Assembly: GCA_028122555.1 (NCBI GenBank)
Contig: JAOHSH010000006.1
Coordinates: 1 to 42,868, forward strand
Direction of reading: 5' to 3'
DNA: 42,868 nt
Source of the DNA: Methylophilaceae bacterium
GTDB lineage: Bacteria; Pseudomonadota; Gammaproteobacteria; Burkholderiales; Methylophilaceae
The translations under genes and the position numbers were made by a program. Positions within the stretch are counted from its first letter, which is position 1. Each line of letters starts with the position of its first letter. This document shows, piece after piece, positions 31,272 through 42,868 of this stretch. Under the pieces are notes generated by a model. The model was given only the letters and a program-made list of their open reading frames with translations. It searched no databases and was not told the origin of the DNA.

Positions 31272-32126
31272 TTAAATATATAAATAGCCGAAAGTAATAT
31301 ATAAAATTGGTATCGTTGGACAAAAACTATCTAATCTATCCAAAAAACCTCCATGACCTGGAATCAATGAACTACTGTCTTTGATTTTAGCCATTCTTTT
31401 TAAAAAAGATTCATAAATATCACCATATAAACTTAAAGCAGTTACTAAAAATGCCAATAAAAAACCTTCAATTAAACTTAAGTTTAAATATGAAAACCAA
31501 AAAAATACAAAAATAATATTACAAACAAATCCACCCAATAAACCTTCGAAAGTCTTACCTGGACTAATTTTTTTGGCTATTTTAATACTTCCAAAATTCT
31601 TACCTACAAAATACGCTCCAATATCTGCAAACCAAATCATTAGTAAAAGAATAATTAAAAAATCTTTATCTCCATAAAAGAAAAATAAAAGTGAAAGAAG
31701 CATTGGTGTAATATAAATAAGACCGTAAAAGACTTTAATTAACGGATTTGATGAAATTTTCTTATAAAAAATATCAATAGGGACAATTAGAAACCAAAAA
31801 AATAAAGTAAATGGAGCAAAAATTAAAATATACGAATCATAAATTTGATGTATTAAAAATGTGTCGTATTGTACCAATAAAGAGTTAAAAAAAGATGACG
31901 AGTATGAAAGATAATAATAAAAATACGTTAGTATCGGCAAAGTAGCTAAAACCCAATAAAATAAAGCACTTATACCTTTTATTTTTAAAATTTTACTTAA
32001 CTCAAATAATAAGAAACCACCAATAAAAATTACTAAACCTCCAAAGAAAATAGGGTCTAGAAAAAAATAAAAGGAAACAAAGATTACTAGCAGGACAATT
32101 GAAGATATTATTCTCTGGCTAAGCAT
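31272..32126 (-). CDS. cdsA: Phosphatidate cytidylyltransferase
   Basis: A 284-residue polytopic membrane enzyme (about eight helices) forming CDP-diacylglycerol. The C-terminal signature KISPGKTFEGLLGG, then GDIYESFLKRMAKIKDSSSL and IPGHGGFLDRLDS, holds the metal-binding Asp residues. Its ATG overlaps the uppS stop by one base (TAATG), and its stop adjoins the dxr start. Confidence 0.96.
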   Translation of the reverse strand: MLSQRIISSIVLLVIFVSFYFFLDPIFFGGLVIFIGGFLLFELSKILKIKGISALFYWVLATLPILTYFYYYLSYSSSFFNSLLVQYDTFLIHQIYDSYILIFAPFTLFFWFLIVPIDIFYKKISSNPLIKVFYGLIYITPMLLSLLFFFYGDKDFLIILLLMIWFADIGAYFVGKNFGSIKIAKKISPGKTFEGLLGGFVCNIIFVFFWFSYLNLSLIEGFLLAFLVTALSLYGDIYESFLKRMAKIKDSSSLIPGHGGFLDRLDSFCPTIPILYITFGYLYI

Positions 32127-32854
32127 TATTTTTCACCTTTAAGATTTCCAAATTTTCTTTCCGTATTTTGAAAAAAATATAATGCATTAACTAAGTCTTT
32201 GTCAGAGAAATCAGGCCATAAAGTATCAATGAAATATAGTTCTGAATAAGCAATCTGCCATAAAAGAAAATTACTTAACCTTCTCTGCCCCCCAGTTCTA
32301 ATTAATAAATCAACATCAGGCATTCCATTTGTATAAAGATTATCAATTAAATCTTTTTCTAATAAAGCCCCTTTCTTTTTAATAGCTGCTTTATTTACCG
32401 CCATTAATATTTCTGATCTAGCACCATAATTTAATGCAATGTTCAATTGTAGTCCTGTGTTTATCGATGATTCTTTAACTAAAGTCTTAATCTCAGATTG
32501 AAGCTTTTTAGTAAAAATACCAATATCGCCCAAAACACGAACCCTTATATTATTTTCTATAACTTTATTTCTTTGACTTTTTATTGAATCTGAAAAAAGA
32601 TTCATCAATCCATTTATTTCCTCAGATGGACGGTTCCAATTCTCAGTACTAAATGCATACAAAGTAGCAGTTGGGATATTATAATTAATTGCTGATTTAA
32701 TTATTACCTGTATGGAATTCAGTCCTTTTTTATGTCCAGCAATCCGTGGAAGAAGCCTTTTTTTTGCCCAACGACCATTCCCATCCATTATAACGGCTAA
32801 ATGTTTAGGGGCTTTTAATGGATTTAAAAATCTTTTTTTAAAAAAATAAAACAG
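32126..32854 (-). CDS. uppS: Undecaprenyl diphosphate synthase, probable non-ATG start
   Basis: A cis-prenyltransferase making the C55 lipid carrier for cell-wall synthesis. Motifs: MDGNGRWAKKR with the catalytic Asp, YAFSTENWNRP, LNYGARSEI and DLLIRTGGQRRLSNFLLWQ, YTELYF-like SELYFIDTLWPDF. The first ATG (32786-32788) encodes that first motif directly, giving 220 residues and losing the preceding core strand. The upstream codons read PKHLAVI in frame, exactly the expected strand, and the frame stays open back to the frr TAG. The best start for a full-length protein is CTG at 32852-32854, with GAGG seven bases before it, giving 242 residues and the catalytic Asp at 24 (26 in E. coli). An ATG-only caller would report 32126-32788. 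A one-base error in the 7T/7A run at 32833-32846 is the main alternative. Confidence 0.92.
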   Translation of the reverse strand: MFYFFKKRFLNPLKAPKHLAVIMDGNGRWAKKRLLPRIAGHKKGLNSIQVIIKSAINYNIPTATLYAFSTENWNRPSEEINGLMNLFSDSIKSQRNKVIENNIRVRVLGDIGIFTKKLQSEIKTLVKESSINTGLQLNIALNYGARSEILMAVNKAAIKKKGALLEKDLIDNLYTNGMPDVDLLIRTGGQRRLSNFLLWQIAYSELYFIDTLWPDFSDKDLVNALYFFQNTERKFGNLKGEK

Positions 32855-32869
32855 AGTGAAACCTCGGGC

Positions 32870-33424
32870 CTATATAGCCAACAAATCTTTTTCTTTTGCA
32901 TTAATTAGTTTATCAATCTCAATAATAAACTCATCAGTAATTTTTTGTATTTCTTCCTGCATTCTTCTCTCGTCATCTTCACTAATTTCTTTCACTTTTG
33001 ACATTTTTTTTAATATTTCGTTACAGTCACGGCGGATATTTCTAATTGCAATTTTTGAATTCTCACCTTCTGATTTTACAACCTTTATTAAATCTTTTCT
33101 TCTTTCTTCAGTTAAAGCTGGCATTGGAATTCTAATTAGCTCACCTGAAGTAGATGGATTTAATCCTAAATCACTTTCTCGAATTACTTTTTCTATCGTC
33201 TGAATCATAGTTTTCTCATATGGCTGAATATTGATTGTAGTTGCATCTGCAACCGTAATATTTGCAAGCTGAGTCAATAGAGTCTGGGTTCCATAATAAT
33301 CAACTGATATATGATCTAATATACCGGCATGTGCTCTACCTGTTCTTATTTTTGATAAATCTAATTTTAGAGCATCAACGCTTTTTTGCATTCTTATAAC
33401 TGCATTTTGTTTAACTTCATTCAT
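32870..33424 (-). CDS. frr: Ribosome recycling factor
   Basis: A 184-residue factor that splits post-termination ribosomes with EF-G. It is full length, with the conserved [23 protein letters not shown], the helix-rich three-helix bundle and [17 protein letters not shown]. Its TAG stop is followed in frame, with no further stop, by uppS. It lies 18 bases after pyrH. Confidence 0.97.
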
Positions 33425-35142: not shown

Positions 35143-35904
35143 CTAGTTTTTTTCTTCTTCCACCTCTTGATTTTGCTCAATATCTTCCTTTTCATTTGAA
35201 ACCATTTTAGCTAGATCATTGATAGCTTGATTTTTTCCATCAAGAATTGCATCAGCCATACCTCTGGCATACAATCGAATAGCTCTACTTGAATCATCAT
35301 TTCCAGGAATAACGTAATTAATATTTTCTATTGAATTATTTGTATCAACAATTCCAATAATAGGAATTCCTAATTTTGCAGCTTCTTCAATAGCGCCATT
35401 TTCATAACCTACATCAATAACAAAAATAGCATCAGGTAATGAAGCCATGCTCTTAATACCACCAATAGATCTTTCTAATTTATCAAGCTCTCTTGTTAGA
35501 TTAAGCCCTTCTTTTTTAGTTAATTTGTCTAGACTCCCATCTTCTTGCATCAACTGAAGTTCATTTAATCTTTTTATTGATTGTTTTACAGTTTTAAAAT
35601 TCGTTAACATCCCCCCCAACCATCTATAGTTGACGAAAGAACAATCAGCTCTTATAGCTTCCTCTTTGAGTATTTCCCTGGCTTGCCTCTTAGTGCCAAC
35701 AAATAAAATACGGCCCTTATTCGCAGCAAGTGTTTTTGCATACTTTAATGCATCATTAAACATGGGTAATGTTTTTTCAAGATTTACTATATGAATTTTA
35801 TTTCTGTCTCCAAAAATATAAGGTGCCATTTTTGGATTCCAATAACGGGTTTGATGTCCAAAATGAACACCCGCCTCTAACATTTGTCTCATAGTTATAG
35901 ACAT
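35143..35904 (-). CDS. rpsB: 30S ribosomal protein S2
   Basis: A 253-residue small-subunit protein. It begins with [20 protein letters not shown] and has [23 protein letters not shown] and PDAIFVID, with an acidic C-terminal tail. An AAGGAG lies upstream of the ATG. The 159-base spacer to map contains two hairpins that fit an autoregulatory leader. Confidence 0.98.
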
Positions 35905-35934
35905 TTTGTATCTCCTTGTAAGGGTTAATCACTT

Positions 35935-41381: not shown

Positions 41382-42119
41382 TTAACTTTTAATAGAAAAA
41401 ATTTTTCTTAACTTTTTGAAATTACTTTTATTTTTTTTAATTTGTAATTTTTTTATATTCGAGATTGCTTTAGATGGATTTAAGCCTTTCGGACAAACAT
41501 CTGCACAATTCATAATATTATGACAACGATATAACTTATCAGGATGATCTAAATCAATTAATCGCTCTTTAGATCCATCGTCTCTTGAGTCTGCTAAAAA
41601 TCGATATGCTTGTAGTAAACCAGCTGGACCTACAAACTTATCAGGATTCCACCAAAACGATGGGCATGAAGTTGTGCAAGCACCGCACAAAATACACTCA
41701 TATAAACCGTCTAATTTTTTTCTTTCTTCCGGACTTTGAAGCCTTTCTTTTTTTGGTGGTAATTCTTTATTAATTAAATATGGTTTAACTGAGTTATATT
41801 GATCAAAAAATTGAGTCATATCAACCACTAAGTCTCTTATGATTGGTAATCCCGGCATTGGTCTTAAAATAATTGGATGTTTTAAATCTTTTAACTTTGT
41901 TACACAAGCTAAACCATTCTTTCCATTTATATTCATCGCATCAGATCCACAAACACCTTCCCTACAAGACATTCTCATTGATAAAGAATCATCTATACCT
42001 TTAATTTTAATCAGAGCATCAAGAAGCATGACGTCTGTTTTTTCAGGCTCAAAATCATAACTCTGCATATATGGCTTTTTATCTTGGTCGGGATTAAATC
42101 GTAAAATTGAAATTTTCAT
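41382..42119 (-). CDS. sdhB: Succinate dehydrogenase iron-sulfur subunit
   Basis: A 245-residue subunit passing electrons from FAD to quinone. The [2Fe-2S] site is Cys52, Cys57, Asp60 and Cys72 (MSCREGVCGSD, LAC); Asp in place of the third Cys is as in E. coli SdhB. The second domain has Cys142, Cys145, Cys148 and Cys152 (ECILCGACTTSCP) and Cys199, Cys205, Cys209 (RCHNIMNCADVCP) for the [4Fe-4S] and [3Fe-4S] clusters. A basic C-terminal extension (KKNKSNFKKLRK) is present. Confidence 0.97.
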   Translation of the reverse strand: MKISILRFNPDQDKKPYMQSYDFEPEKTDVMLLDALIKIKGIDDSLSMRMSCREGVCGSDAMNINGKNGLACVTKLKDLKHPIILRPMPGLPIIRDLVVDMTQFFDQYNSVKPYLINKELPPKKERLQSPEERKKLDGLYECILCGACTTSCPSFWWNPDKFVGPAGLLQAYRFLADSRDDGSKERLIDLDHPDKLYRCHNIMNCADVCPKGLNPSKAISNIKKLQIKKNKSNFKKLRKIFSIKS

Positions 42120-42124
42120 AATTA

Positions 42125-42868
42125 TTAGTAAACCCTTTCTTTTAGAGGAAAAGATTTAACAGTTAATGGTTTCATATTAACAGGCCTAAACGATATATTT
42201 TTTTCAATAGAACTATAAAATGAATGTTTAAGCCAATTTTCATCATCTCGTTTAGGAAAATCATATCTAGAATGTGCACCCCGACTTTCTTTTCGAGTAA
42301 ATGCTGCGTTGATTGTAGCTTCCGCAACCTCAATTAAATTAGAAATTTCTAATGCTTCTGTTCTAGCAGTATTAAAAACTTTCGACTTATCTTTAATTTC
42401 TAGATTATTAGTTTTTTTTCTTAACAACTTAATCTCACTTAAACCTTTCTCTAACAATTCTGGAAAACGAAAAACACCGCAATGATCTTGCATAACCCTC
42501 CTTAAATCATCTCCTACCTCTTTAGGATTCTCACCATTATTATTTTGATTTAATTTGTCTAATCGATCTAAAGTAAATTCTGCAGCATTTTTAGGTAGTG
42601 TTTTATGTTTTTTATTTTTTGAATTTTTAATAATACTTAATCCTGCAGCTCTGCCAAAAACTACTAAGTCTAATAATGAATTTGAACCTAAACGATTAGC
42701 ACCATGAACAGATACACAAGCACATTCTCCCACAGCATACAAGCCATCAACAATAGAATTATTAATTATGTCCCTTACTTGCCCATCAAGGTTTGTTGGT
42801 ATACCTCCCATCATATAATGCGCCGTTGGCACGACTGGAATAGGATCAGTAACTGGATCAACATTAGC
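42125..42868 (-). CDS. sdhA: Succinate dehydrogenase flavoprotein subunit (C-terminal part; runs off the window)
   Basis: The last 247 codons of sdhA; the start lies past the window. PTAHYMMGGIPTN holds a substrate-binding His, GECACVSVHGANRLGSNSLLD is the FAD-binding end, and ESRGAHSRYDFPKRDDENWL carries the conserved Arg/His segment. The coding frame is open to the last base; a GTG in it (42830-42832) is just an internal Val. The N-terminal FAD domain and the His that binds FAD covalently are not in view. Confidence 0.97.
   Translation of the reverse strand, partial: ANVDPVTDPIPVVPTAHYMMGGIPTNLDGQVRDIINNSIVDGLYAVGECACVSVHGANRLGSNSLLDLVVFGRAAGLSIIKNSKNKKHKTLPKNAAEFTLDRLDKLNQNNNGENPKEVGDDLRRVMQDHCGVFRFPELLEKGLSEIKLLRKKTNNLEIKDKSKVFNTARTEALEISNLIEVAEATINAAFTRKESRGAHSRYDFPKRDDENWLKHSFYSSIEKNISFRPVNMKPLTVKSFPLKERVY

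Follow-up and report, generated by a model that had tools for sequence, protein, structure and literature searches.

CUG makes up 0.024% of bacterial start codons, and in E. coli its output is given as 0.86% of that of AUG (PMC11497404). Non-canonical starts are repressed by IF3, the Streptomyces gene sigR being among those named, and the E. coli infC start is given as ATT (PMC5472188). In a reconstituted system, weak codon-anticodon pairing is opposed by IF3, EF-G and RRF; CUG goes unnamed in the part of that report drawn on here (PMC10158994). We analysed a stretch of 42,868 nucleotides from a Methylophilaceae bacterium (contig JAOHSH010000006.1; hereafter the window), in which uppS, the gene for undecaprenyl/polyprenyl diphosphate synthase, appears to start with CTG. 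This gene is essential, and to our knowledge the common gene callers accept TTG and GTG, and not CTG, as starts. Among the open-access matches listed, no title or abstract opening reports a CUG start of uppS, although one may be in print elsewhere.

The minus strand of the window carries, in this order, rpsB, tsf, pyrH, frr, uppS, cdsA, dxr and rseP (table 1). The names rpsB, tsf, pyrH, dxr and rseP are presumed from the sequences, and so is cdsA. From the frr stop to the ATG at 32788, the uppS frame runs through 27 sense codons with zero stops. These codons include no ATG, GTG or TTG, and the CTG at 32854-32852 is their single NTG; PKHLAVI is encoded immediately upstream of the ATG. A first-pass annotation of the window had described the frr-uppS junction in just these terms, with no standard start before the Met of MDGNGRWA, 27 open codons back to the frr TAG, and the CTG, preceded by GAGG at seven bases, as the sole near-standard start. 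Its reading and its coordinates proved correct on re-reading. An aligned relative was available for 25 of the 42 ORFs selected from the window. For uppS the first standard start lay inside the aligned region in 9/9 relatives, by 5-25 residues. The runner-up, the ORF at 41385-42158, had its first standard start 11 and 7 residues inside in two of two relatives, and for the ORF at 35146-35931 it lay 8 residues inside in one of eight. This comparison took in the stretches L287-L289 besides L281-L286.

Table 1. Features of the frr-uppS-cdsA region, in positions of the window.
Feature	Position	Strand	Remark
uppS (undecaprenyl/polyprenyl diphosphate synthase)	32126..32854	-	242 codons from the proposed CTG, then TAA
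CTG, proposed uppS start	32852..32854	-	sole NTG ahead of the core in frame
GAGG, Shine-Dalgarno-like	32862..32865	-	read from the sequence; 7-nt spacer TTTCACT to the CTG
First ATG of the uppS frame (Met of MDGNGRWA)	32786..32788	-	
UppS N-terminal leader FYFFKKRFLNPLKAPKHLAVI	32789..32851	-	encoded from the CTG to the first ATG
T7/A7 homopolymer	32833..32846	-	no sign of a frame error
frr (ribosome recycling factor)	32870..33424	-	stop TAG at 32872-32870, CTG 15 nt further on
cdsA	31272..32126	-	ATG start overlaps the uppS stop; from the ORF list

The protein encoded from the CTG is a member of the UppS family, with 265 bits against PF01255 (cut-off 27, E = 6.2e-79) and 262.9 bits against TIGR00055, over the curated cut-off of 109.55. 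The frr product matched Pfam PF01765 with E = 1.5e-64. MDGNGRWA, ENW, RTGG and SNFLLWQ, which we take to be the motifs that define the UppS family, are all present in the window protein and are largely invariant in the alignment. In the AlphaFold2 model (mean pLDDT 88.8), a helix at residues 2-9 of the leader is followed by a strand at residues 18-22 (HLAVI), just before the Met encoded by the ATG. P16, H18, A20 and I22 are invariant across 25 aligned sequences. All 35 distinct sequences among the solved-structure matches align from before residue 23, and 29 of the 35 do so from residues 12-16. Conservation of the leader among relatives is no more than moderate at the protein level, which counts against initiation at the CTG: within the CTG groups described below, 7-14 of the 20-21 leader codons are identical, 3-7 differ silently and 2-8 change the residue. 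The leader is basic and hydrophobic, of an FFKKRFL-like type, in the CTG group and in several TTG relatives (window 32789-32851; L111-L124). This type differs from the SSST-type leader seen in numerous other genera, and in the window it is predicted to form a helix; it possibly binds the membrane, which is a guess.

The window comes from an assembly of 857 kb that is 69% complete; members of the genus that are at least 90% complete measure 1.2-1.4 Mb, and the genus presumably belongs to the streamlined OM43-type group. uppS was matched in 23 of the 31 genus genomes, and the junction could be read in all 23. In seven of these loci, L111-L117 (L111 is the window), the core is preceded by no standard start, and a CTG lies ahead of MDG in every one, by 22 codons for L111-L113 and by 21 for L114-L117. 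Initiation at the CTG, one of several options in the first-pass annotation, gains good support from this 7/7 pattern. An eighth CTG junction, L134 (1499-1589), lies at a contig end in the same assembly as L115. The same non-canonical codon recurs in the seven genomes and at L134, and in the seven no standard start retains the protein core. No other near-cognate start (ATA, ATT) in the leader is common to all seven CTG sequences. L134 also has an ATG immediately before PNH, a possible start, and perhaps derives from a related strain binned with L115.

The surroundings of the CTG differ between these loci. In L112 and L113 an in-frame TGA follows the frr stop ahead of the CTG, and in L115 and L116 an in-frame TAA precedes the CTG by one or two codons. 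Owing to these close upstream stops, the CTG is the first usable codon in all four. In L114-L117 frr is in a different frame from uppS, and all three frames occur among the 23 genus loci. frr itself starts with ATG in 22 of the 23, the script having left one unsettled. The remaining 16 genus loci start uppS with TTG (12) or GTG (4). A TTG is found 22 codons before MDG, the same distance as the window CTG, in L118, L119, L120 and L122, and 26 codons before MDG in L121, L123 and L124; the other nine loci have a standard start 13-17 codons before MDG. L126 was counted as GTG like L125 and L127, its TTG at 27 codons before MDG falling inside frr, and L132 was counted as GTG, with an ATG following two codons on. 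At the other end of the gene, L111-L117 have an ATG in the cdsA frame that follows the first base of the uppS stop by 2-9 nt; L125, L126, L128-L131 and L133 have no ATG at the stop and a candidate cdsA start, TTG, 14 nt before it. A search of the phage sequence collection gave no match, and the best 80 of 580 matches in a contig scan included one close relative, L031.

Three other routes to a UppS protein can be weighed against these observations. Initiation at the ATG at 32788 would use the first standard codon and barely alters the Pfam score (265 versus 262.4 bits), because the PF01255 model begins at the ATG site. That start falls inside the conserved core, however: according to the model it would delete residues 1-22, with the predicted strand at 18-22 (core strand A) and the four invariant residues, and the TIGR00055 score drops from 262.9 to 247.1 bits. 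We consider it very unlikely, although the ATG may give a minor second product. The earlier warning that an automatic ATG call gives the wrong N-terminus was right, and such calls would truncate uppS of these species by removing strand A. Slippage, such as a -1 frameshift, or a missing base at the T7/A7 run would instead place the start at an ATG inside frr (32901-32899), from which translation would pass into the uppS frame. This ATG opens a frame different from that of uppS, which runs across the homopolymer as the first-pass annotation had said and stops shortly past it; at the run it reads U UUA AAA, a slippery-type heptamer, and in the window and L113 it is open up to and through the run. 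In L112, however, a TAG is its eighth codon, which closes the frame upstream of the heptamer, and within each group the CTG lies at a fixed distance from MDG. The relatives retain the CTG-MDG frame across the homopolymer even where the run differs (TTTTCTTAAAAAAAG in L112), which argues that no base is missing. The proposal of slippage or sequencing error thus failed, and we regard a frameshifted start as highly improbable. Read-through of the frr TAG, which would yield an RRF-UppS fusion, agrees with the window, where frr and uppS share a frame and a single TAG separates them. L112 and L113 share this frame yet carry the further TGA, and in L114-L117 frr lies in a different frame; relatives thus do not keep the layout of one frame and a single stop. 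These stops and frames exclude read-through, to which we give next to no chance. The shared frame itself had been correctly observed; since all three frames occur across the genus, it carries no meaning. Re-initiation or coupling after frr, which the first-pass annotation had put forward together with read-through, is plausible with the CTG 10-15 nt away.

Our preferred reading is that uppS very probably starts at the CUG, read by the ordinary initiator tRNA, with ribosomes likely fed from frr and a weak codon that would hold output low. The CUG would be decoded as fMet, and ribosomes finishing frr 10-15 nt upstream would supply uppS as the next cistron. The CTG follows the frr stop at 15 nt for L111-L113 and at 10-11 nt for both L114-L117 and L134, and it is from this distance that we infer coupling. 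Re-initiation is reported to drop with distance and to be aided by a Shine-Dalgarno sequence (PMC2268962), and the GAGG in the window would assist initiation at the CUG. The computed Shine-Dalgarno duplex reaches -6.6 kcal/mol in the window and -5.6 kcal/mol in L113, with -2.1 to -2.9 kcal/mol at the other six CTG junctions. The 16S 3' end had no match in the window's own assembly, so the duplex energies were computed with the usual anti-Shine-Dalgarno. The weakness of the duplex at six of the eight CTG junctions counts against initiation at the CUG, and an output of 0.86% of that of AUG seems small for a cell-wall enzyme. To see whether local RNA structure might hide the CTG, 82 nt of RNA from each of the eight sequences were folded, in native order only; the minimum energies lay between -3.2 and -9.6 kcal/mol, and the 12 positions compared differed between sequences. 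The simplest reason for a CUG would be that selection keeps UppS output low compared with the neighbouring genes.

An unusual initiator tRNA was considered as an explanation and set aside for the two CTG-group genomes in which the stem was found, G016 and G018: there it is standard. Across the 31 genus genomes the anticodon stem is unchanged in 21 and has one mismatch in a 22nd (G009); a search found no initiator tRNA stem in the other nine, which include five of the seven CTG genomes (G000, G017, G004, G022 and G023), the window's own among them. The mismatch in G009 (L278, contig 16, bases 11-27) is in the anticodon triplet of an initiator-tRNA-like stem at a contig end, and perhaps reflects an assembly error or another tRNA.

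Weak starts of uppS extend beyond the genus. In the family, uppS was matched in 169 genomes, 23 in the genus and 146 in other genera, of which 101 were read. In genus g43 the start is GTG in 14 of the 14 read (15 had a match). The 87 loci of the remaining other genera gave TTG in 47, GTG in 20 and ATG in 20; these counts are approximate, with more than one NTG at 9-31 codons before MDG in 33 of the 87 and a start-choice rule that disfavoured CTG if another NTG stood near. Altogether, with the genus included, 124 family genomes were read, and in 97 of them uppS starts with TTG or GTG (start choice approximate in 33). The distances from the start to the core and to frr vary from genus to genus. 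TTG or GTG is thus the usual start in the family, and the window lineage seems to have a still weaker codon. As a positive control for the reading of odd start codons we used infC, matched in 28 of the 31 genus genomes, whose start column holds ATA at all 26 loci that could be read (L245-L270), in place of the ATT given for E. coli. Two of these loci, L263 and L264, also have a GTG further in. One further infC match (L271, G029 contig 2) has four internal stops, one TGA and three TAA, in a genome that is 47% complete; it is either a broken copy or poor sequence.

Whether the CTG has been kept by selection was approached through the fate of other CTG codons. The seven CTG loci have a GC content of 29-32%. 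CTG codons of the window outside the uppS leader were compared with the matching codons of six stretches, L281-L286. Against L281 and L282, the longer versions of L112 and L113, none of 32 comparisons found CTG on both sides, and against L283-L286 1 of 57 did. In uppS and frr, none of the 11 columns with any CTG has it in all seven species. The fairest control, which mimics the choice between CTG and TTG at a start, is given by leucine columns free to swap CTR and TTR: where any CTR was present, the column was all-C in 0 of 26 cases with seven species and in 0 of 55 with six. On these counts ordinary CTG codons appear to be short-lived in these genomes. A protein tree of uppS and frr gives the branches that carry the two CTG groups lengths of 0.33 and 0.45 changes per site, and a single origin of the CTG start, by one change, was found in 28% of bootstrap trees. 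The CTGs of the two groups are offset by one codon, and the aligner placed them in separate columns.

In our view these results are moderate evidence for a preference of CTG itself over TTG at the uppS start; long retention across both groups is likely, and an odd codon common to related species suggests that the weak start is maintained by selection. It could also be that the CUG initiates and that the codon is common by descent or chance, with no selection against stronger starts. Seven related species, in two groups, make a small sample, the tree is compatible with one origin or two, and the one-codon offset between the groups makes chance sharing likelier; the swappable leucine columns that are never all-C and the low GC content of the loci speak against it, and we think it rather unlikely. 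Control by IF3 is an extension of the CUG-initiation explanation and no alternative to it. In this extension the CUG serves regulation: IF3 would reject the CUG complex and UppS output would follow IF3 activity, as for infC and sigR. In its favour, the sharing of the CTG exceeds that of ordinary CTG codons, and with ATA conserved in the infC of the genus, discrimination by IF3 is presumably active. A precedent is found in sigR, whose GTC start is repressed by IF3 and occurs in 32/34 Streptomyces (PMC5472188). Constant low output, however, accounts for the same data more simply, and the window's own genome yielded only a fragment of IF3. Such control is possible, if unlikely. By analogy, it is a fair hypothesis that UppS output would be linked to IF3 or RRF; the fuller version, that IF3 and possibly RRF disfavour the CUG complex, with UppS output tracking initiation-factor and ribosome-recycling status, is doubtful. 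If true, the conserved CUG would make a connection between the translation machinery of these bacteria and the growth of their envelope.

The interest of the uppS CTG lies in the combination of a rare codon, an essential gene and diverged species that share the codon. A rare CUG shared in a core gene offers a natural test of whether selection retains very weak starts, and with ATG, GTG, TTG and CTG starts within one family, uppS provides a ready-made measuring series. Next to infC, uppS is a further candidate for control that responds to IF3.

Among the closest known systems is the same gene in other Methylophilaceae, where uppS likewise has a weak start; TTG and GTG are, however, standard starts, whereas the CTG proposed in the window is non-standard. 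Together with infC and sigR, the uppS CTG would make a further case of a conserved non-canonical start. infC resembles it in this conservation and is reported to be controlled by its own product (PMC5472188), whereas uppS encodes no initiation factor and would use CTG. In Streptomyces sigR, the conserved GTC lowers output relative to the product of the neighbouring gene, as we propose for uppS. sigR differs in its codon, in being a regulator gene, and in that its repression by IF3 was shown experimentally (PMC5472188); uppS, with its CTG, is an enzyme gene.
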